A DNA stretch of 64,000 bases. Origin: Sycon ciliatum. Taxonomy: Eukaryota > Porifera > Calcarea > Leucosolenida > Sycettidae. Made by a program: the position numbers and the translations under genes. The stretch covers positions 12,262,369 through 12,326,368 of the forward strand of contig NC_088645.1 in assembly GCF_964019385.1 (NCBI RefSeq), written 5' to 3'. Under the pieces are notes generated by a model. That model was not told the DNA's origin, did no database searches, and saw only the letters and a program-made list of their open reading frames with translations. Of this stretch, positions 429-63,982 are shown in pieces (the first letter of the stretch is position 1; every line of letters starts with the position of its first letter).

Positions 429-866
429 ATTATCATTCGTTCTCACTTTTTTTTTTTTTTTTTTTTTTTTGTTGCTGATACACACTTGTCACGCTTAGTT
501 CTTACTTGTATACCCTTGTTTTCTGCACACTTTTGTGAGAAATCGCACCTCGATATTCTAGTGCTGTCATTGTATCGTGTCACCCTACCTTGATTGCTAT
601 ATTATTTCCTTTGTTCTCATTTTGTTCTTTAGTACAACGGTGATTCCTGAAGAGTGTTGTACGAACACTTGTTCGAATCATCTTTTTTTTCCATTGCCCT
701 TTTTCTTCTTACATGTATTTTTCCTTACCCTTTAGGTTGTTTCTTGCATCGTCTCCATCGCTTACATTGTTAATAAAGTAGTCCACATGTCGCTTCAGCT
801 CGTCCTACTTATTGCCATATTAACATTATTGTCTCCTCGTCGAATTTTTAAATACTTCAGGTCGAG
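429..866 (+). repeat. Left pseudo-LTR of the Penelope-like element
   Basis: This copy matches 4075-4497 almost base for base, including a 22-24 nt T-run, a hammerhead motif, an AATAAA-like stretch (TTAATAAAG) near 770 and the first codons of the RT ORF. Sequence identity ends abruptly at both edges. Confidence 0.85.
639..682 (+). ncRNA. Hammerhead ribozyme, left pseudo-LTR (one core-adjacent change)
   Basis: Stem I pairs GGTGATTC (639-646) with GAATCATC (675-682). Between them lie the core CTGAAGA (647-653), a two-base-pair stem II (GT/AC), GAA (663-665), a 3-bp stem III with a two-base loop, and C674 as the cleavage base. Compared with the right copy, the first stem III base is C instead of A, which breaks the pair next to the core. 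It is therefore probably weak or inactive. Small type I hammerheads in Penelope pseudo-LTRs are an established phenomenon. Confidence 0.7.
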
Positions 867-3800
867 ATATAGCCAGACTCAGATAGATATTCTGAACCAT
901 GCGCTGAAGTCACGATTTCATTATCGTAGAGTTGCATTTAACGTAGTGTTCCTTAGACGTTGTCTGGACAATGGTGTTTGTCCAGGTGGTGTAGAGAACC
1001 GTGTCCGCAGGACCAAAGCTTACCACACGTTAAACATCGAACGCGTATTCATGAAAGACGAGATTGCCCGGTCCTGCGACACTTTGTCAAAGTCACGTTC
1101 GCGGTTTAGGTATTTGTATGATCGTGCACGCTGCTTTCTCTCCTCTCACGACTTCTTGAGATTCTCTATGCTCCTTTCGGAAAATGACCAGAAACAACGT
1201 ATCCATCTAATCACAAAACATGACAAGACCTACAATTGGCTAAGACAGAAACGATATGGACATGTCACCATCGATCCTGATACCACCATAATTAACATGA
1301 CATCACTAGAGTTGACCACTCTTCAGAAAGAGCTCCTCTGTCGTGGAACCGATTTCGGGATTCCACCAAAATCAAACAAGAAGGAAGTAATCATGACCGA
1401 GTTTGAGCTCTTTTACCGCAAGTTATTACGTTTCAGACCGGTGTCCGAGTCACAACAGTCCATTTGCGCCGCAAAGATCCGGGCAGAGGCCGAGGAACAC
1501 GCTGATGCATTACCGGATAGAAGAACGTTTTCATTGAAACGCGAACATCTCAAAGCCCTGCATGAGCTACGTAATAACAAAGACATTATTGTCACGCGCC
1601 CGGATAAGGGTCGTGCAACTGTTTTAATGAATAAAACTGACTACATCGAGAAGATGTCCGTTATCCTAAATGACACATCAAAGTTCCGTACACTTGGTCC
1701 GGTCAAGACCTGTGATCGAACTGAAAAAGTAGAAAAAGATCTTGTAACTTACCTTAAGAAGCTAAAGAATGAAGAACAAATATCAAAACATGAATTCGAT
1801 CGCATCAAACCGACTGGTACCCTTCGTCCTAGACTCTATGGCCTTCCTAAAATTCATAAACCTACATGCCCTGTTAGACCAACAGTATCCATGACCGCCT
1901 CCCCTCAATACTCTATCTTGAAATGGCTGTGCATCTACCTACAGCCTGTTCAAGATTACTATTGCAAACGCACTGTGAAGGATAGCTTCGACTTTGTTGC
2001 GAGGCTTCGTGATAGTCCGGTCCCTCTCAATGCACACATGTGTTCCTTCGATGTTGTAAGTCTCTTTACGAATGTTCCTATTGATGAGACTGTTGACATC
2101 TGTATGGATGTATTGTACCGTAACGATGATGTTGATACTCCATGGGTATCGGAAGCGGCGTTTCGTCATTTGATGCTGTCAGTTACAACTGGTGTCGAAT
2201 TTTCGTTCAACGATGTGATGTACAAGCAAGTAGATGGTGTGGCGATGGGATCTCCTCTTGGTCCCGTCCTCGCCAATATATTCGTTGGTTATTGTGAGTG
2301 CAAGATTGATGAGTCGCTTTGGCCCGCGTTCTACGTGCGTTTTGTTGACGATTCGTTCACGCATTTTGACAGGGTTGAGAGCAGTGAATTGTTTCTCGAT
2401 GTGCTCAACAACCTACATCCTTCCCTCCGCTTTACTTGTGAGCACGAGCAGTCTAGTAAGTTGTCATTTCTAGACGTGCTTGTAGAGAAGACTGGCTGTG
2501 AAATGTTGACTTCTGTGTATCGTAAGCCTACGTTCACCGGTCAGTACATTGCCTTCGATTCATATTGTTCGTTTCAATACAAGGTCAACTTAGTTCGTAA
2601 CCTCGTGGACCGTGCGAAACGTATTTGTTCGCCCAGTAAGCAGCAGGCCGAGCTCGATTTCCTTCGATCTGTTTTCTTGAAGAATGGCTACCCGGAATTC
2701 TTGTTGCGTAAGTTTCTGTCCATGGAGCAGAAACCGAAATCGGTGCTGATTGGTCCACCTCGCTGTCCCGTCTATCTATGTTTGCCATGGAAGGGGCAGG
2801 AATCGATCAAAGTGTGTCACGCAGTCAAGTCTATCGTCCGTCGTACTTATTATGCAGTACATTTTGTGCCAGTCTTCACAACAATGCGTGCGTTCACGGT
2901 GCGGAAGGACGTCCTACCAACCCTCCACCTCAGTCATGTTATCTACAACTTCGAATGCCGACATTGTGCTAGTCGGTATGTTGGTAGGACTGTTCAGCAC
3001 CTGAACGCACGTATCAAACAACACACTCCACTTCACATCCTTCCACCCAGTGCGCAATCTGAGAGGCCCAAACGCGGGAGGCCTAGGAAAAACCCATCAC
3101 CTAGACGGCAGGATAGTTCCCTGCCGCTGTCTGCCGCTCCCCCTCTGACATCTGTGTTGGACGGGCTGGAGCTTGGCAGCTCTTTGGAGGTGCGTGCGGA
3201 ACCGCCACTGGTGCAGCCCTCGGGTGTGCCTAAGTCTGTGCCTCTGGGTGCTTTGCATGGGGCTGTGCCTCGAGTGGTGACAGCACCTCTGCCTCCCCCT
3301 GACCCTCCTCCTTCGAGGTCTGTGTTGGTGGGGAGCACCCGTGGTGGTCGATTTGTCCCACCGGAACCAGAGCTGGATTCAACAGAAAGACCAACAACCA
3401 TGGCGGCAACAACAACACCAGTTTCACATCCAACAACAACACCAGGTTCACATCCAACAACAACAACAACTAATCCACAAAACAAAGCAGCAAATGACAG
3501 ACCACGGAGATCTACAGCAGATTACAACCGGACCTATGAATTCACGGTAAAAATACAAAGGAAACAATCGGAAAGGACGACGACTGACGTGAAGGCAACG
3601 GCATTCAGGGTTGGCGTGGGTGGTGAAGGTGAGACGCAGGACGATGCAAGTGAGGAGGAGAGTCAAACCGCGGTGGATGACGGAGCAGGTTCTGATTCGG
3701 ACAGTGAGGGAGAAGGTGAGCTGAGTGAGGGTGAGAGGGAGTGTGAGGGTGTGCGCGTGAGTCGAGATTGTGTGCGTCCGTCTCGTAATAACAAGTCTTC

Positions 3801-3993
3801 AGTATACAATCATTTGGTTTCTAGTACTGACTGTTGTCGTACTTATTCTGATTCCTGTTTTTCTGTTTTGTGCCGTGCTCGTCATGGTTATCTTTTGCAG
3901 TTACAAGTTTTGGAAGCTGTTTGTCAGCGCATTCATAAGCCGAATTTGTGTGTCCAGAAAGATAGTGTTATTACCCTAAAATTGTTCAAATAA
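787..3993 (+). CDS. Penelope-like reverse transcriptase with GIY-YIG endonuclease
   Basis: This 1,068-residue protein copies the element's RNA into DNA and nicks the target. Residues of about 260-640 hold the Penelope-type RT: PDKGRATVLMN, LYGLPKIHK near 351, the motif A aspartate in SFDVVSLFTNVP near 420, GVAMGSPLGP, and the catalytic FVDD near 518. From about 717 a GIY-YIG domain begins (VIYNFECRHC, YVGRT, then an Arg/His helix). It is interrupted after about residue 755 by a stretch of roughly 240 residues with an AT-hook (KRGRPRK), Pro-rich, PTTT-repeat and acidic segments. The GIY-YIG C-terminal half resumes near 1000 (SSVYNHL, then VLEAVCQ with the likely catalytic Glu, then KPNLCVQK). 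The ATG at 787 lies inside the pseudo-LTR and opens a hydrophobic leader, so the real start may be elsewhere. No frameshift is visible. Confidence 0.9.
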   Translation: MSLQLVLLIAILTLLSPRRIFKYFRSRYSQTQIDILNHALKSRFHYRRVAFNVVFLRRCLDNGVCPGGVENRVRRTKAYHTLNIERVFMKDEIARSCDTLSKSRSRFRYLYDRARCFLSSHDFLRFSMLLSENDQKQRIHLITKHDKTYNWLRQKRYGHVTIDPDTTIINMTSLELTTLQKELLCRGTDFGIPPKSNKKEVIMTEFELFYRKLLRFRPVSESQQSICAAKIRAEAEEHADALPDRRTFSLKREHLKALHELRNNKDIIVTRPDKGRATVLMNKTDYIEKMSVILNDTSKFRTLGPVKTCDRTEKVEKDLVTYLKKLKNEEQISKHEFDRIKPTGTLRPRLYGLPKIHKPTCPVRPTVSMTASPQYSILKWLCIYLQPVQDYYCKRTVKDSFDFVARLRDSPVPLNAHMCSFDVVSLFTNVPIDETVDICMDVLYRNDDVDTPWVSEAAFRHLMLSVTTGVEFSFNDVMYKQVDGVAMGSPLGPVLANIFVGYCECKIDESLWPAFYVRFVDDSFTHFDRVESSELFLDVLNNLHPSLRFTCEHEQSSKLSFLDVLVEKTGCEMLTSVYRKPTFTGQYIAFDSYCSFQYKVNLVRNLVDRAKRICSPSKQQAELDFLRSVFLKNGYPEFLLRKFLSMEQKPKSVLIGPPRCPVYLCLPWKGQESIKVCHAVKSIVRRTYYAVHFVPVFTTMRAFTVRKDVLPTLHLSHVIYNFECRHCASRYVGRTVQHLNARIKQHTPLHILPPSAQSERPKRGRPRKNPSPRRQDSSLPLSAAPPLTSVLDGLELGSSLEVRAEPPLVQPSGVPKSVPLGALHGAVPRVVTAPLPPPDPPPSRSVLVGSTRGGRFVPPEPELDSTERPTTMAATTTPVSHPTTTPGSHPTTTTTNPQNKAANDRPRRSTADYNRTYEFTVKIQRKQSERTTTDVKATAFRVGVGGEGETQDDASEEESQTAVDDGAGSDSDSEGEGELSEGERECEGVRVSRDCVRPSRNNKSSVYNHLVSSTDCCRTYSDSCFSVLCRARHGYLLQLQVLEAVCQRIHKPNLCVQKDSVITLKLFK

Positions 3994-4074
3994 TGTTCTG
4001 TTGTGTAGTGTGGCAACGTTGTTGCCACTTGTGCCTAAATGTGTTTTGTCACCTTCTTGTTTATTATTGTTATT

Positions 4075-4515
4075 ATTATCATTCGTTCTCACTTTTTTTT
4101 TTTTTTTTTTTTTTGTTGCTGATACACACTTGTCACGCTTAGTTCTTACTTGTATACCCTTGTTTTCTGCACACTTTTGTGAGAAATCGCACCTCGATAT
4201 TCTAGTGCTGTCATTGTATCGTGTCACCCTACCTTGATTGCTATATTATTTCCTTTGTTCTCATTTTGTTCTTTAGTACAACGGTGATTCCTGAAGAGTG
4301 TTGTACGAAAACTTGTTCGAATCATCTTTTTTTTTCCATTGCCCTTTTTCTTCTTACATGTATTTTTCCTTACCCTTTAGGTTGTTTCTTGCATCGTCTC
4401 CATCGCTTACATTGTTAATAAAGTAGTCCACATGTCGCTTCAGCTCGTCCTACTTATTGCCATATTAAAATTATTGTCTCCTCGTCGAATTTTTAAATAA
4501 TAATAATAATAATAA
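4075..4515 (+). repeat. Right pseudo-LTR with (AAT)n tail
   Basis: This is the second copy of the 429-866 repeat, starting 81 bp after the RT stop codon. It ends after a truncated copy of the ORF start, where TTTTTAAATAA runs into about six AAT units. The few differences from the left copy include the base that restores the hammerhead core. Confidence 0.85.
4283..4326 (+). ncRNA. Hammerhead ribozyme, right pseudo-LTR
   Basis: Core CTGAAGA is at 4291-4297, GAA at 4307-4309 and cleavage base C at 4318. Stem I pairs GGTGATTC (4283-4290) with GAATCATC (4319-4326), with one G-T pair. Stem II is GT/AC around a five-base loop; stem III is AAC/GTT around TT. All conserved core positions are present. 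The distance to the equivalent base in the left copy (674) is 3,644 nt, which is the expected length of a self-cleaved unit transcript. Confidence 0.78.
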
Positions 4516-7737: not shown

Positions 7738-7987
7738 TGCTAGTTTGTACGTGAAGTGTGTGGGTTACAGTGAGGGCTGCGTCCCACCCGCCTGTGTGGA
7801 TTCACAGGAAGTGTGAGTTACGAAGTCTGAAGAAAACGTTGAACGGTCTCTGCTTGGATGACGACTACACCATAGCTCAGTGGTTAGAGCATCGCTGGCT
7901 ACAAGCGAGGGTCCCTGGTTCGAGTCCTGGTGGTGACAGTCAATTTTTTCTTCAGACTTTTCCCGTTTGTCTCTTTCCCTCAAACCA

Positions 7988-9380: not shown

Positions 9381-9396
9381 GAATTTGAAGCCACCA

Positions 9397-9522
9397 CTGC
9401 AGCTGTACTTTGCAGCCTAGAGAGCGTGTGTGGGCAGGCGTGTGTTTACCGCCATATTGCCAGGTGTGTCTTTACCACCATATTTATCAACCATAAGTAC
9501 AGCTGCAGTGGTGTCTTCAAAT

Positions 9523-9557
<35 letters not shown>

Positions 9558-10019
9558 GCATTGATAGTTTCTTGCACACTGCATGAAATTGTTAATTACC
9601 GTAGTAGCTGACACGTAGCTGTTGACTACACTGGCTGAACGTGAACACTTCTGCCTCACAATAATTCAAATGCTGAAATCGTTTGCAGGCTGCGGTTTAG
9701 TTCATGTCAGATGACTGCAGCTGTACTTTGCAGCCTAGAGAGCGTGTGTGGGCAGGCGTGTGTTTACCGCCATATTGCCAGGTGTGTCTTTACCACCATA
9801 TTTATCAACCATAAGTACAGCTGCAGTGGTGTCTTCAAATTCATTATTATTATTATTATTGTTGCATTGATAGTTTCTTGCACACTGCATGAAATTGTTA
9901 ATTACCGTAGTAGCTGACACGTAGCTGTTGACTACACTGGCTGAACGTGAACACTTCTGCCTCACAATAATTCAAATGCTGAAATCGTTTGCCGGCTGCG
10001 GTTTAGTTCATGTCAGATG
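9397..10019. repeat. Tandem duplication of about 317 bp
   Basis: Copies at 9397-9713 and 9714-10019 are nearly identical and differ mainly in the length of an internal (ATT)n tract and one base near 9690/9992. The small ORFs in them are duplicates of each other without recognisable content. Confidence 0.85.
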
Positions 10020-52436: not shown

Positions 52437-53110
52437 TACACCACAGCTCAGTGGTTAGAGTATTGCTGGCTTCAAGCGAGGGTCCCTGGTTCAAGTCCTG
52501 GTGGTGACAGTCAATTTTCTGCAGACGTGTCCCGTTTGCATCTTTCCCTCAAACCAGTGAATCCTTTATGATTTGGCCATTGGCGCTCCCCGCGCTAGTT
52601 TGTACGTGAAGTGTGTGGGTTACAGTGAGCGCTGCGTCTGTGTGGATTCATAGGAAGTGTGAGTTACGAAGTCTGAAGAAAATGTTGAGCGGTCTCTGCT
52701 GGGATGACGACTACACCATAGCTCAGTGGTTAGAGCAACGCTGGCCTCAAGCGAGGGTCCCTGGTGCGAGTCCTGGTGGTGACAGTCCAATATTTTCTTC
52801 ACACTTTTCCCGTTTGCGTCTTTCCCTCAAACCAGTGAATCCTTTATGACTTGGCGCTCCCCGCGTGCTAGTGTGTACGTGAAGTGTGTGGGTTACAGTG
52901 AGGGCTGCGTCCCACCCGCCTGTGTGGACTCACAAGAAGTCTGAAGAAAATGTTGAACGGTCTCTGCTGGGATGGCGACTACACCATAGCTCAGTGGTTA
53001 GAGCGTCGCTGGCTACAAACGAAGGTCCCTGGTTCGAGTCCTGGTGGTGACAGTCCGATATTCTTCAAACGTTTCCCGTTTGGGTCTTTCCCTCAAACCA
53101 GTGAGTTCTA
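52437..53110 (+). mobile_element. Tandem array of three tRNA-derived SINE units
   Basis: tRNA-like heads lie at 52437-52508, 52712-52783 and 52980-53051, that is 275 and 268 bp apart. Each is followed by a CCCGTTTG-TTTCCCTCAAACCAGTGA tail, and copies two and three are preceded by the GTACGTGAAGTGTGTGGG body seen at 7738. Unit 1 is 5'-truncated. B boxes are GGTTCAAGTCC, GGTGCGAGTCC and GGTTCGAGTCC, so unit 2 is probably Pol III-weak. A head-to-tail trimer is unusual for a SINE. Confidence 0.8.
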
Positions 53111-55345: not shown

Positions 55346-55389
55346 CTGGGGACAGAACTGTTTCGTCCTTTGTGGACTCATCAGCTCAG
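55346..55389 (-). ncRNA. Type I hammerhead ribozyme (tandem copy, 3' in transcript)
   Basis: On the minus strand: stem I CTGAG/CCCAG with one mismatch, core CTGATGA (complement of 55378-55384), stem II GTCC/GGAC, GAA, stem III ACAG/CTGT around TT, and the cleavage base complementary to 55351. The core is complete. Confidence 0.8.
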
Positions 55390-55627
55390 CACAGAGGCGG
55401 AACCTGATAGCAATGAAGAATATAATTTCCAAAGCAAGATTTAAACCAGGCCCGAACGTACCTAAGGCTTGCCAGAGTGCTCAAACTGACAAGTCGGTGA
55501 GCTCTGCGTAATGCAAACAGCAAAGGCACTACCCCACATGAGAGTGCTCGACTACTACAAGAGCAGGAACGAAATACTCAATCTGTAGTTAGAAACATAT
55601 ACATGTACATGTATAATTATACTCAAT

Positions 55628-55673
55628 CTGCGGACAGCATGCTGTTTCGTTCTTTTTGAACTCATCAGCGCAG
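55628..55673 (-). ncRNA. Type I hammerhead ribozyme (tandem copy, 5' in transcript)
   Basis: Stem I CTGCG/CGCAG is perfect. Core CTGATGA is complementary to 55662-55668. Stem II is GTTC/GAAC around AAAAA, stem III ACAGC/GCTGT around AT, and the cleavage base is complementary to 55633. All stems are complementary although their sequences differ from the neighbouring copy. Confidence 0.85.
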
Positions 55674-55799: not shown

Positions 55800-56258
55800 C
55801 TTGTACACAAGAGAGAGAGAGATTGGAAGCTGGGTCGCAACTCTGAGTTTCACGTATTACTACGATAATCAGGCAACTGATGGCTTCAAAACGGGCAGCC
55901 TGAACATAATGGGGAGCAAGGTGAGAACTACTGAAGGAAGTCATAGCGAACGAGTCAAGTCCAGGCGAGAAGTTAGTTGCTAAGTCTTCAGATTTGGCAC
56001 TTGAAAGTCCCCAGCTCTACAAGTATTCTACTCTATTTTATTCACACCGGAACTGCTGCTGCATAGCTCTAAGTCTAAAGGCTTAGCAACTTCTCACCTG
56101 CACTTGACTCGTTCGCTGTGACTCCCCAAGTATTTCTCACCTTGCTCCCCCTTATGTTCAGGCCGCCCGTTTTGGATCCATCAGTTGCCTGATGATCGTA
56201 GTAATACGTGAAACTCAGAGTTGCGACCCAGCTTCCAATCTCTCTCTTGTGTATACAT
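55800..56258. repeat. Inverted repeat with arms of about 180 bp
   Basis: Arms of about 55800-55982 and 56075-56258 are about 90% complementary (landmark TTGGAAGCTGGGTCGCAACT). The spacer is 90 bp. The mirrored ORFs are by-products. Confidence 0.8.
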
Positions 56259-56430: not shown

Positions 56431-57231
56431 TCATCAAATTAGTCGTTGTCATACACCTTTACATTTGTTCCTACATGTAAGTACGTGTACATGTATTGGA
56501 TATTTTCAAACATACCTTTTAAAATACAATCTTTATTGCCACATGTACTTCATAATGCTGGGTTCTCATTTCTCAAGGACAAGTCCTTGTACATGTATTA
56601 ATGCTGAATACCCTAGCACAGGTCGAAATATACATGTACTTGTACATGACACAATGCCCATGCATATGGCTGACCTGAAGACCGTGACAAGGAGGAATCT
56701 GGGGCAACAGTACAACAGTGGAGCAAGACTAATTCTTTGCAACTCGGAGTTTCATGCACAGTGCCACCATCAGGCCACATAGGGATGTTGTTAACCATGC
56801 CAGTATACAATGCACATTATAATGGGAGTCTTCGGGGTATCACAGTCATGTTCAAAAGTACATCAATCAATGCCGGTACTCTCTTGCCAGCACCTTAAAC
56901 AGATACAACAACGCAGCAAACATTGTAAATACTCACTGCAGGTGGAAGAAGGAAGGTATCATAAAGTGGTTTCAGTACTTAATGTAGCCATATTCAATCG
57001 CATCAACATTGCCCCATGACAGGCCCAACAAAAATACGATGGCAAGCATGCTGTTGAAGGCTCGAACCGTAAGCACTTTTAGCAGATTTGGCAAAGGTCT
57101 TGTGGACTCTAACTACTAGTACTCCCTGATGAAACTCCAAAGGCTAACATGTGAGATTTCTACCATTATGAAAATGCTTTGCTTCACGGAAACGTATTTC
57201 ATCGCGAAGAGCTGCGCTTCGGTCCTCTGAG

Positions 57232-57276
57232 CTGTGCTGATGAGCTCGAACAGAGTGAAACAGTTGCTGTCCACAG
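57232..57276 (+). ncRNA. Type I hammerhead ribozyme, plus strand
   Basis: Stem I CTGTG/CACAG, core CTGATGA (57237-57243), stem II GCTC/GAGT with one G-T pair, GAA (57257-57259), stem III ACAG/CTGT around TTG, cleavage base C57271. The 60 bases upstream resemble those upstream of the 55.35-kb copy (TTTCATCGC, TTCGGTCCTCTGAGC), so it is a diverged member of the same element family in the opposite orientation. Confidence 0.83.
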
Positions 57277-57479
57277 ACTTGTGTACAATCATGTACTTGT
57301 CACGTGGTGTATTAATTGTCACAAATTCACTTTTGTGTTTATTCATGCGCTAGTTTCGCTCATCCTCTCTCTGATAATCATACTCGACCATCGCCTCCCT
57401 CATCTCATTTTGATGACGATATTTTTTGGTCGAAACGCTAGAATATTTCGGAGCCTAGCCGCGCGCTCCGGATTTAGGG

Positions 57480-61054: not shown

Positions 61055-63982
61055 GATCCTCTGGGAGCTCCCAATCAAGTAAGAAGTAAAACCCCAAGTA
61101 ATATCCACTCTGCTTGTCTCCTTAAATACTCTGCCCATGACCCACTTGTAGTAGCACACATAAACATATGCAGCCTCAGAAACAAAACTCATGAAATTCA
61201 ACAACTATTGTCTGACCATAAAGTTCACGTCCTATGCATTACCGAGTCTCACCTGGACTCCACTGTTAGCGATGCTCGCCTTAACATACCTAACTTTAAT
61301 GTTTTCCGCTGTGATCGCACTATACATGGTGGCGGTGTCTGCATTTATGTTCATTCTCACTTTGCTGGAACCGTAATCCAACGATCTACAGGATCCACTC
61401 TAGAGATATTAACTGTCCGTATCCGCCTTGCTACCAAGCCACGTGCAACAGACATTAGTGTGTCCACCTTGTATCGCCCGCCGTCTGCCACAGTGAATTT
61501 CTGGGACCAGTTGAGCTCTGAACTTGATTTAGCCCTTCAAACTCCGAATGCATTAATCCTAGGCGACTTCAATACTGATGTCCTCCAGCCAACGACTCCA
61601 GGATATCGCCATCTACAGCGTGTCTGTGCGGAGCATCACCTCAGAAATGTTATCACTGAACCCACTCGTTTAGCACGCACTTGCCTAGATCTTGCTCTGG
61701 TTTCAGACGGCTCCCCTGTAGTCAAGGCGGAAGTAGTCTCAATGAACGGTGTTAGTGATCACGATCTCATCATTGTCCAATGTGCCTATCAAAACCTTGA
61801 GCCCATTCCTGCGCACACTCACAGGCTGATTCGGAAGCCTGCACCCCATTCTATGGACTTTGACCAATGTGGCCAGGAAATCAGTGAAAGTTTCAGAACT
61901 TCGGAGTCGCCCACCAGCCTGGACGGTCAAGTGAAGCACTTTTCCAAGTGTTTGAGACATGTTCTGGACAGAAATGCCCCGATCACTCAGCTCAAGGTGT
62001 CTGGATTTGGCAGGCCTCGTCGGCAACCATGGGTTACGTCACACTTGAAAAATCTTCTTCAGCTTCGAATAAACTTGCACAGGAAATTACGAAGGAACCC
62101 AACCGACGGCCCCCTCCTCCAGCAGTACCGGGCAGCACGGCGCGAGGGAACCCTCTTGAATAAGAAACTCAAAACAGAATACTGCGTGAAGGCCTTCAAC
62201 ACCCACAAACGCAACCCCAGAGCCCAATGGCAAATCCTGAACAAGCTTGCAGGACGAGAAAAAGTCAAATCACTACCTAAGGCGACTATATCCGACCTGA
62301 CAGCCACATTTGCAACCGTAGTTTGTGATCCTGCAAGACCGTCTGAACTTGTTCTACCCAGCCCACCAGTCGACATGCCCACTCTCAACGAGTTTACGCC
62401 AGTCACAGTAGAGTATGTTGAAGATGTCTTGAAGTCATTGAACAGCCACAAAGCACAAGGTTCCGATGAAATACCACCATGTCTCCTCAAAGGATGCCGC
62501 ACAGACATCGCTGGCCCACTCACCGCTATCATCAATAAGTCTCTGCATACAGGCCAAGTTCCAAGTAGTTTTAAGCATGCACACGTGTGCCCACTCTACA
62601 AAGCTGGCGACGCAACTATTGGCTCCAACTACCGACCAGTGTCACTTTTGCCAGTGATATCCAAAGTGCTTGAGAAGGTAGTACACCGACAACTTGTAGC
62701 ATTCTTCGACAATCATCCGGAACTCGGTGCATTACCGGAGGAGCAGTTTGCTTACAGGCGCAATCACAGCTGTGAAGACCTTTTGGCGTATGCAATAAAC
62801 GACTGGCAGTTGGCCTTGGACAAGAAGCAGCTGTGTGGAGCCATGTTTGTGGACATGAGCAAGGCCTTCGACCGCGTTCAGCATAGCAAGCTCGTGCAGG
62901 AACTGGCTTCAGTTGGCGTCGGAGGTGTGGCATTGCGTTGGTTCGCAGACTACCTTACTGGGAGAACCCAGCAGGTCGTTGTCGGCGATGCCCGAGGCAG
63001 TACAGAGCCCTGCTCACGTGGTGTACCACAAGGCTCCGTGTTAGGCCCCTTACTTTTCTGCATTTATATCCGGCGTACCCCTCAGAAATTTCAACATTGC
63101 CGTGCTCTCCTGTTTGCGGACGACATCGCGTTCTACGTCATCGGTCGCAAGGCTTCAACCGTGCTCAGAATGCTTCAGACAGATCTCTTGAATCTGGAGG
63201 ACTTTCTCAGCGAGCGGGGACTGGTGCTGAATCCCAAAAAGTCTCAGCTACTGTTGCTCAGACGACCTACTGCGCAACTGGACGTGATCCCCAGCATCAC
63301 CTGCAAAGGCACCGTAATCCCCGAGTCCAGCCATGTTCTGTACCTTGGCCTCCTATTGGACTCGTCGCTCAGCTTCGAGCAGCAGGTTGAGCGTGTGTGC
63401 GCAAAGGCACAGTGCAAGGTTGCCTCATTCCGCCACGGGCGCCGCGATGTCTCCATGACCGGCCGCCGCATGTTTTACCTGACAATTGTCCAGAGTACCT
63501 TGGACTATGCCAGCACATGTTATGTTCACTGCTTGTCTGCTAAACTCAGAGACAAACTTGAGTCAACCAGCAATAGGTGCCTAAGGCGAGTGTTTGGCCA
63601 TGATCAGTATACTTCTATCGATTTCATTCTCACCAAATATAACCTGTATACTTTCTCTCGCCGTGTAAACTTGAAGCTGTTTGTGTTTGTTTTTAGGTGT
63701 CTATCTCGTTGCACCAGTCCTCTTTTAAGCACGATATTTACCCCCCGCTCTGCATCATGCCGCACAAATGCTGCTACCCGCGGTCAAGCTTCAGCTGCTC
63801 TGAACCTACCCAGAGCTACGTCTCGTTACGGCCTGAATGCTATTTCATTTTTGGCAGCAGACAGATGGAACATGCTTCCACCTGGATGTCGTCAAGCTAA
63901 GCCCCTTTCTGCATTTGTCACAAGCACCAAGTCATTCCTAGGGTTCCCAGTAAAAAGGCAACGCCTGTTGGGAGTTCCCTAG
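61055..63982 (+). CDS. LINE ORF2: endonuclease and reverse transcriptase
   Basis: The frame is open from the codon after the ORF1 TAG to 63982 (975 codons) with no ATG in its first 100 or more codons. The apurinic-type endonuclease occupies the first 270 residues or so (HINICSLRNK, ITESHLD, GGGVCIYV, LILGDFNTD, GVSDHDLI). The RT follows (NYRPVSLLPVISKVLE, FVDMSKAFDRVQ, GVPQGSVLGPL, catalytic FADD). The C-terminus has the conserved SRYGLNAISFLAADRWNMLP block. ORF2 nicks the target and primes reverse transcription there. Translation probably depends on readthrough or reinitiation past the ORF1 stop. Confidence 0.9.
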   Translation, partial: DPLGAPNQVRSKTPSNIHSACLLKYSAHDPLVVAHINICSLRNKTHEIQQLLSDHKVHVLCITESHLDSTVSDARLNIPNFNVFRCDRTIHGGGVCIYVHSHFAGTVIQRSTGSTLEILTVRIRLATKPRATDISVSTLYRPPSATVNFWDQLSSELDLALQTPNALILGDFNTDVLQPTTPGYRHLQRVCAEHHLRNVITEPTRLARTCLDLALVSDGSPVVKAEVVSMNGVSDHDLIIVQCAYQNLEPIPAHTHRLIRKPAPHSMDFDQCGQEISESFRTSESPTSLDGQVKHFSKCLRHVLDRNAPITQLKVSGFGRPRRQPWVTSHLKNLLQLRINLHRKLRRNPTDGPLLQQYRAARREGTLLNKKLKTEYCVKAFNTHKRNPRAQWQILNKLAGREKVKSLPKATISDLTATFATVVCDPARPSELVLPSPPVDMPTLNEFTPVTVEYVEDVLKSLNSHKAQGSDEIPPCLLKGCRTDIAGPLTAIINKSLHTGQVPSSFKHAHVCPLYKAGDATIGSNYRPVSLLPVISKVLEKVVHRQLVAFFDNHPELGALPEEQFAYRRNHSCEDLLAYAINDWQLALDKKQLCGAMFVDMSKAFDRVQHSKLVQELASVGVGGVALRWFADYLTGRTQQVVVGDARGSTEPCSRGVPQGSVLGPLLFCIYIRRTPQKFQHCRALLFADDIAFYVIGRKASTVLRMLQTDLLNLEDFLSERGLVLNPKKSQLLLLRRPTAQLDVIPSITCKGTVIPESSHVLYLGLLLDSSLSFEQQVERVCAKAQCKVASFRHGRRDVSMTGRRMFYLTIVQSTLDYASTCYVHCLSAKLRDKLESTSNRCLRRVFGHDQYTSIDFILTKYNLYTFSRRVNLKLFVFVFRCLSRCTSPLLSTIFTPRSASCRTNAATRGQASAALNLPRATSRYGLNAISFLAADRWNMLPPGCRQAKPLSAFVTSTKSFLGFPVKRQRLLGVP

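Follow-up and report, generated by a model that had tools for sequence, protein, structure and literature searches.

Results

Two hammerheads and a recurring 12-mer on the minus strand

The 64,000-nucleotide stretch of Sycon ciliatum DNA analysed here (the window; NC_088645.1, positions 12,262,369 to 12,326,368) carries two complete type I hammerhead cores on its minus strand, as the first-pass annotation had stated. The core of hammerhead 1 extends to C17 at 55668-55633 (CTGATGAG...GAAAC...GTC), with cleavage predicted between 55633 and 55632, and its helices are CTGCG/CGCAG (I), GTTC/GAAC (II) and ACAGCATGCTGT (III). Hammerhead 2 shows the same core pattern at 55384-55351 on the minus strand, with cleavage predicted between 55351 and 55350 and an A-C mismatch in helix I (CTGAG/CCCAG). 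The two predicted cleavage sites are exactly 282 nt apart, and each core is followed by the common tail CAGATTGAGTAT, at 55630-55619 and 55348-55337; both observations had been reported correctly. An additional CAGATTGAGTAT at 55585-55574, with no hammerhead before it, had been overlooked. Lying between the hammerheads, this third copy changed our reading of the locus: it is the 5' end of a second element.

The core pattern occurs three times in the window, compared with 0.02 occurrences expected in a shuffled window; besides the pair, it picks out an unrelated hammerhead at 9332-9308. The proposed covariance-model check (Rfam) hit both copies of the pair, in each case below the gathering cut-off: hammerhead 1 scored 26.5 bits with HH9 (cut-off 52) and hammerhead 2 scored 24.4 bits with Hammerhead_1 (cut-off 34). 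Four family copies elsewhere in the genome exceed the Hammerhead_1 cut-off. Folding energies lend weak support, with z-scores of -1.26 and -2.13 for the first and second copies and +0.60 for a third, plus-strand copy at 57237, for which the predicted single-strand fold shows no hammerhead.

Three separate insertions at the locus

To describe the insertions we number the unit from the first base past the cleavage site. Insertion 1 (55675-55619, minus strand) is a 5'-truncated, 57-nt copy of subfamily A covering circle positions 186 to 14, i.e. the hammerhead plus a 14-nt tail; it is 100% identical to unit A, and its 3' end is the usual 3' point of the retrozyme family. It is followed by 33 nt of TACATG-rich, microsatellite-like sequence (55586..55618) that falls outside both unit alignments. 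Insertion 2 (55585-55337, minus strand; 249 nt) runs from circle position 3 round to position 14, one turn plus ∼12 nt, and has CAGATTGAGTAT at both termini. It is more diverged and belongs to a subfamily whose unit measures ∼237 nt; its identity is 82% to unit B and ∼86% to relatives at loci L074, L058 and L053. Insertion 3 lies on the plus strand (57223-57285, positions 179 to 13, with its hammerhead at 57237); this hammerhead and tail are 81% identical to unit A over 63 nt and end at the family's same point. Together with ∼57 nt upstream, insertion 3 matches L058 and L031 with 95 and 92% identity over 120 and 124 nt respectively. Since the upstream part is not retrozyme unit, we assign insertion 3 to a related family in which this hammerhead and tail are joined to another body.

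Tandem units (∼150-450 nt) are absent at the locus, where the copies stand separately. No target duplication of at least 7 bp was found at insertions 2 and 3, and the flanks of insertion 1 hold a single 8-bp candidate, with a displaced 3' end. Adjoining the retrozyme copies is a hairpin-like element, a 119-nt inverted repeat (55814-55932 / 56129-56247; 95% identity, 196 nt between the arms) with an inner 39-nt pair.

A retrozyme family with tandem arrays elsewhere in the genome

Searching the genome (538 Mb in 313 contigs) with the exact pattern CTGATGAG..CGAAAC..CAGATTGAGTAT gave 1,564 matches (898 + 666) and none with the reversed control; an exact 35-mer from the middle of the unit gave 1,907 (951 + 956). 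The further tandem copies that the first-pass annotation had proposed to look for were found as arrays with units of 226-229 nt. In subfamily A, neighbouring copies are mostly 228 nt apart, helix II is GTTC/GAAC and helix III contains GCATGC; subfamily B has a spacing of 226 nt, helix II GTCC/GGAC and TTCTG. Spacings of 227 and 229 nt also occur, and a more diverged subfamily has a unit of ∼237-238 nt. Values of 184, 207 and 868 nt in the same list reflect intervening other DNA or rearranged units. Among the spacings listed for 51 loci, none is 282 nt.

Units A and B have GC contents of 48.2 and 49.6%, their longest stop-free stretches, read round the unit, span 75-83 codons, and folded as circles they show moderate stability (z = -2.25 and -2.90, each relative to 100 dinucleotide shuffles). 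The cores and helices found are those of a canonical type I hammerhead, as required of metazoan non-LTR retrozymes. Helix II shows compensatory changes (GTCC/GGAC, GTTC/GAAC, GCTC/GAGC, GGGG/CCCC); among 61 motif matches it is fully paired in 55, G-U pairs allowed, and proximal helix I in 42. One exact pattern each gave no match in IMG/VR and in prokaryote genome contigs, collections not meant for animal DNA. A divergent relative, 75% identical to unit B and with CTGATGAGGGGACAAACCCC in its hammerhead, is present at L028 and L035, both flanked by TATTCAGCT.

Most insertions share a 3' end beside helix I

We mapped 107 insertions from loci L001-L091 and the window, after removing 9 of 116 as exact duplicates and omitting alignments less than 40 nt from the end of a locus. 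The loci had been selected by hammerhead or mid-unit, and the sample thus represents insertions bearing one of these; not all are independent, as L006, L033, L055 and L057 have flanks in common. In 95 of the 107 the 3' end lies at position 6-17, typically with the junction GAG|TA(T) beside helix I. The preferred start site of reverse transcription is thereby placed ∼11 nt past the cleavage site, from where insertions run back across that site.

Because most loci were picked with the tail in the search pattern, three less biased sets carry more weight. Among 21 loci found with the Rfam model, which requires no tail, 15 of 17 distinct primary insertions end at position 6-16. At one exception, L002, the end of the hammerhead and the tail resume after a gap; the other, L021, is an 86% copy that ends at position 226, the cleavage site, and runs into an AGAT repeat, perhaps a linear-monomer insertion or else a small deletion. 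Ends at the cleavage site are invisible to the tail-requiring pattern, and their frequency is hence taken from the 17 + 5 less biased loci (1/22). All five loci chosen by the 35-mer end at 10-16 (three distinct, as two pairs have common flanks). Finally, 33 insertions contain an internal tail and were thus open to detection by way of their inner copies. Most of these inner tails have the sequence GAGTATTTCGC, from which the last copy diverges after GAG. This GAG is kept in 31 of the 33, and a further TA or TAT is common to last tail and flank in 28, a count made against AT-rich flanks and with no shuffled control. Over 20 nt, AT makes up 73% of the left and 81% of the right flank.

Target duplications were counted in 94 insertions, omitting 13 of the 107 with a 3' end beyond position 21 or a length below 40 nt. 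In 44 of them the flanks carry a duplication of at least 8 bp, compared with 4.1% of randomly paired left and right flanks, and in 37 one of at least 10 bp (3.2% in shuffled pairs); the remaining 50 lack an 8-bp duplication. By a crude test, which 4-base repeats still pass, 17 of the 44 are simple sequence. Clear examples are TATACTCCCTTT (L045), GTATGGTCATGTA (L029), GAATTGTTAGATA (L046) and GTATGATTCAT (L010). These duplications exceed 4 bp, as required of metazoan non-LTR retrozymes, and mostly place the element end at position 10-12, with TA(T) common to target and RNA (outliers, -2 to 19).

Judged from these junctions, reverse transcription apparently starts there on an uncut RNA, most simply a circle. 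In the canonical reading of helix I, the proximal part is CUGCG/CGCAG and the distal CUC pairs with GAG at positions 9-11. Both pairings appear when the B hammerhead is folded to minimum energy; in the corresponding fold of the A hammerhead, the 3' strand pairs with the neighbouring UCUGUG instead. If the canonical reading is right, the start lies at the open edge of the ribozyme.

Multi-turn copies and the nature of the template

Among insertions with at least 95% identity, 64 of 69 end at position 10-17; the five with 3' ends elsewhere were left out of the counts of 5' ends and lengths. The 5' ends of the 64 are distributed all round the unit, and their lengths range from 50 to 1028 nt, 36 being longer than one turn. 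The maximum, 1028 nt, belongs to L091, where an AT stretch follows an internal tail and two events may be combined; the next longest copy, L071, measures 863 nt, or ∼3.8 turns. Two clusters of 5' ends, at 133-151 (12/64, P = 0.006) and at 180-194 (7 of 28 first-turn copies, P = 0.007), were picked out post hoc and do not count as proof.

All 64 insertions cross the hammerhead and the cleavage site, which is partly a matter of selection, the hammerhead having been the criterion for these loci; the same crossing is seen at the five loci picked with the 35-mer. As only ∼11 nt lie upstream of the start in a self-cleaved linear monomer, such a monomer is no template for these insertions. To judge from where the copies start and how far they run, the templates could be either uncleaved multimers or circles, and similar junctions are to be expected if copying began at this internal start on uncleaved multimers.

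Of the 28 insertions with at least two hammerheads, 27 are uniform in hammerhead type (26 by an automatic typing rule, plus L071 after reading its sequence); L063 is a genuine mosaic of types. Units of the same subfamily differ by 1.21 changes within arrays and by 2.99 between arrays (28 and 350 pairs respectively), and none of 2000 permutations gave a within-array value as low. Private changes are repeated in every unit of the L032, L039 and L059 arrays. Collectively, the arrays look like copies of one molecule; against this, the two units of L019 differ by seven changes. Unequal crossing-over could be another route to such homogeneity; we favour a circle over homogeneous linear multimers or later homogenization, a preference drawn from comparison of the genomic copies.

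A Penelope-like element in the same window

A candidate helper lies at 429-4499 on the plus strand. This Penelope-like element has an open reading frame of 1068 amino acids (787-3993), with RVT_1 at residues 413-538 (E = 1.2e-4) followed by GIY-YIG at 717-747 (E = 0.018), both below the Pfam cut-offs, and is bounded by pseudo-LTRs at 429-854 and 4075-4499 that are 98.8% identical. A motif scan located a minimal type I hammerhead motif at 4279..4330 in the second pseudo-LTR; Rfam makes no call there at gathering score, and the free-energy fold is a different hairpin. In the first pseudo-LTR, the corresponding copy near 647 has C in place of A beside GAA. Among 44 listed genome matches of the element, 20 are full-length and stop-free with 97-100% identity, and we therefore take it to have been recently active.

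Six genome copies were followed past the reading frame. Three end at 829-830 and one at 853, L097 runs on and L100 is unmatched there; the window copy ends at 853-854. These five ends mark two internal points separated by 23-24 nt, and each runs into (ATT)n or (AAT)n. This target differs from the TATA/GTAT targets of the retrozyme, so that element and retrozyme do not share target and start sequence, and the retrozyme unit has no clear similarity to the element (best E = 0.065). Because the Penelope-like element enters another microsatellite, its role as helper of the retrozyme is unproven. Either another enzyme is the mover, or one enzyme serves both and the start sequence of the RNA picks the repeat. 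An open frame of 924 amino acids with endonuclease and reverse transcriptase domains, LINE-like and also a possible helper, is found at 61208-63982 (plus strand).

Discussion

Probable independent insertions copied from a circular RNA

We interpret the window copies as independent insertions of a non-autonomous, non-LTR retrozyme family, generated by copying from circular RNA, and put the probability of this reading at roughly 0.75; cleavage of the RNA, its circles and its copying are steps that we infer. By analogy with published retrozymes, genomic arrays would be transcribed, the RNA would be cut by the type I hammerhead of each unit, and the 226-229-nt monomers would become closed circles. 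A helper reverse transcriptase, most likely that of a Penelope-like element, would then nick AT-rich DNA, and the nicked strand would pair with the UA(U) that immediately follows helix I on its 3' side (positions 12-14). Copying would proceed leftwards through the hammerhead and the ligated cleavage site and on round the circle for 0.2 to ∼3.8 turns before it stops, a course that the junctions support. Outside microsatellites, the target duplication left on joining to the second strand would typically measure 8-16 bp. The hammerheads of the pair would stem from separate events of this kind, probably of different age, and their 282-nt spacing would have no function.

We give about an even chance to a more specific version, in which the hammerhead does double duty: it would make the circle, and the edge of its helix I would serve as landing platform for target-primed copying by a Penelope-like reverse transcriptase. 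On this view, retrozymes would multiply by rolling-circle reverse transcription that writes copies straight into the chromosome, and 2-3 bases of pairing between primer and template would select the microsatellite that receives them.

The first-pass annotation had read the locus as a single retrozyme dimer whose two hammerheads release a circular RNA of 282 nt. Its assignment to a metazoan-type retrozyme family has stood, as arrays exist elsewhere in the genome; the dimer at this site has not. Two complete cores on one strand with the same 12-mer after both, and cleavage sites 282 nt apart, are what a dimer would show, and yet the copies align separately with 33 nt of other DNA between them, so that the pair is not a dimer. 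In addition, a perfectly conserved stub of subfamily A (100%) is paired with a diverged insertion (82% to its nearest unit) whose hammerhead is of a different subfamily, and the third CAGATTGAGTAT marks where the second element begins. Given that recent arrays repeat at 226-229 nt, or ∼238 nt in the diverged subfamily, the value of 282 nt is best read as an accident of neighbouring insertions and not as a unit length. A transcript through both hammerheads might, on the predicted cleavage sites, release a 282-nt RNA, but a 282-nt circle is not the product of the family, and we consider the dimer very improbable. We give even less credence to the view that the arrays are satellite DNA growing by unequal crossing-over, with the hammerheads as passengers. 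Tandem arrangement and largely homogeneous units would agree with it; what speaks against it is that many short copies are dispersed and flanked by target duplications, with 5' ends that vary freely and a 3' end that is preferred, and that helix II carries compensatory changes.

A different template is an unlikely explanation, but one with a precedent: a Penelope-like reverse transcriptase would start internally, beside a hammerhead of a long, uncleaved linear multimer. In the reported experiments on the Anolis element, the reverse transcriptase starts inside the RNA and hammerhead mutants insert equally well (PMC11167929, Frangieh et al., 2024); the Penelope-like copies described here also end at two internal points, and one array, L063, is a mosaic. 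Against this template, arrays are mostly uniform copies of one unit (27/28), and the target duplication, where seen, directly adjoins the element's 5' end (within the 4 nt of slack permitted).

Relation to known hammerhead retroelements

Metazoan non-LTR retrozymes are described as tandem units of 170-400 nt (220-240 nt in the coral Acropora), with circles proposed as templates for reverse transcription and Penelope-like elements as strong candidate movers (PMC7229834, Cervera and de la Pena, 2020). In the features tested, the family described here fits these retrozymes as that account presents them: it has a type I hammerhead in short tandem units and many copies, a GC content below 50% and target duplications of more than 4 bp, and it co-exists with Penelope-like elements. 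The likeness is one of features; the present family differs in that a preferred start of reverse transcription is resolved here. The main text of PMC7229834 contains none of 'junction', 'truncat' or 'insertion site', and its passages on target duplications and on 'primed' give no start point. More generally, no preferred 3' junction of a retrozyme appeared in the titles, abstract openings and main-text passages surveyed. According to a 2020 review, metazoan retrozymes carry no conserved motif that reveals the moving retrotransposon (PMC7761336).

For the Anolis Penelope-like element, two nearby internal start points are described (PMC11167929). As in the Penelope-like elements with minimal hammerheads treated in that report, the retrozyme insertions terminate within the RNA, favouring a point downstream of a type I hammerhead, and the targets are AT-rich. 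The Penelope-like element of the window has pseudo-LTRs, a minimal type I hammerhead motif and a 'tail'; its own end and those of its relatives lie at two neighbouring points, which resembles the 'tail' of PMC11167929. Plant LTR retrozymes, as recounted in PMC7229834, have type III hammerheads, LTRs, circles of 600-800 nt and 4-bp duplications (PMC4918200, Genome Biol 2016). Like these, the present family is non-autonomous and hammerhead-bearing, with a circular RNA as its proposed intermediate; in contrast to them, it has a type I hammerhead, units of 226-229 nt and longer duplications.

With priority uncertain, this genome appears to add a preferred start at the edge of the hammerhead, a short stretch of pairing to the target, and insertions of more than one turn that share this start. 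The role of the circle, so far presumed, thereby becomes a prediction within reach of an assay with a single RNA, protein and DNA target.

Other features of the window

The unrelated hammerhead (9338-9295, minus strand) scores 35.4 bits, above its Rfam cut-off, and has a very short helix III. It adjoins a 306-bp tandem repeat (9396-10019), and 310 nt of the region are copied in L014 with 96% identity. Three tRNA-like sequences were called by Rfam on the plus strand, at 7868-7935, 52714-52781 and 52982-53049; ARAGORN also calls two of the three, with a CTA anticodon. Two of the three lie within a 268-bp tandem repeat, and all are possibly tRNA-derived SINEs rather than genes.
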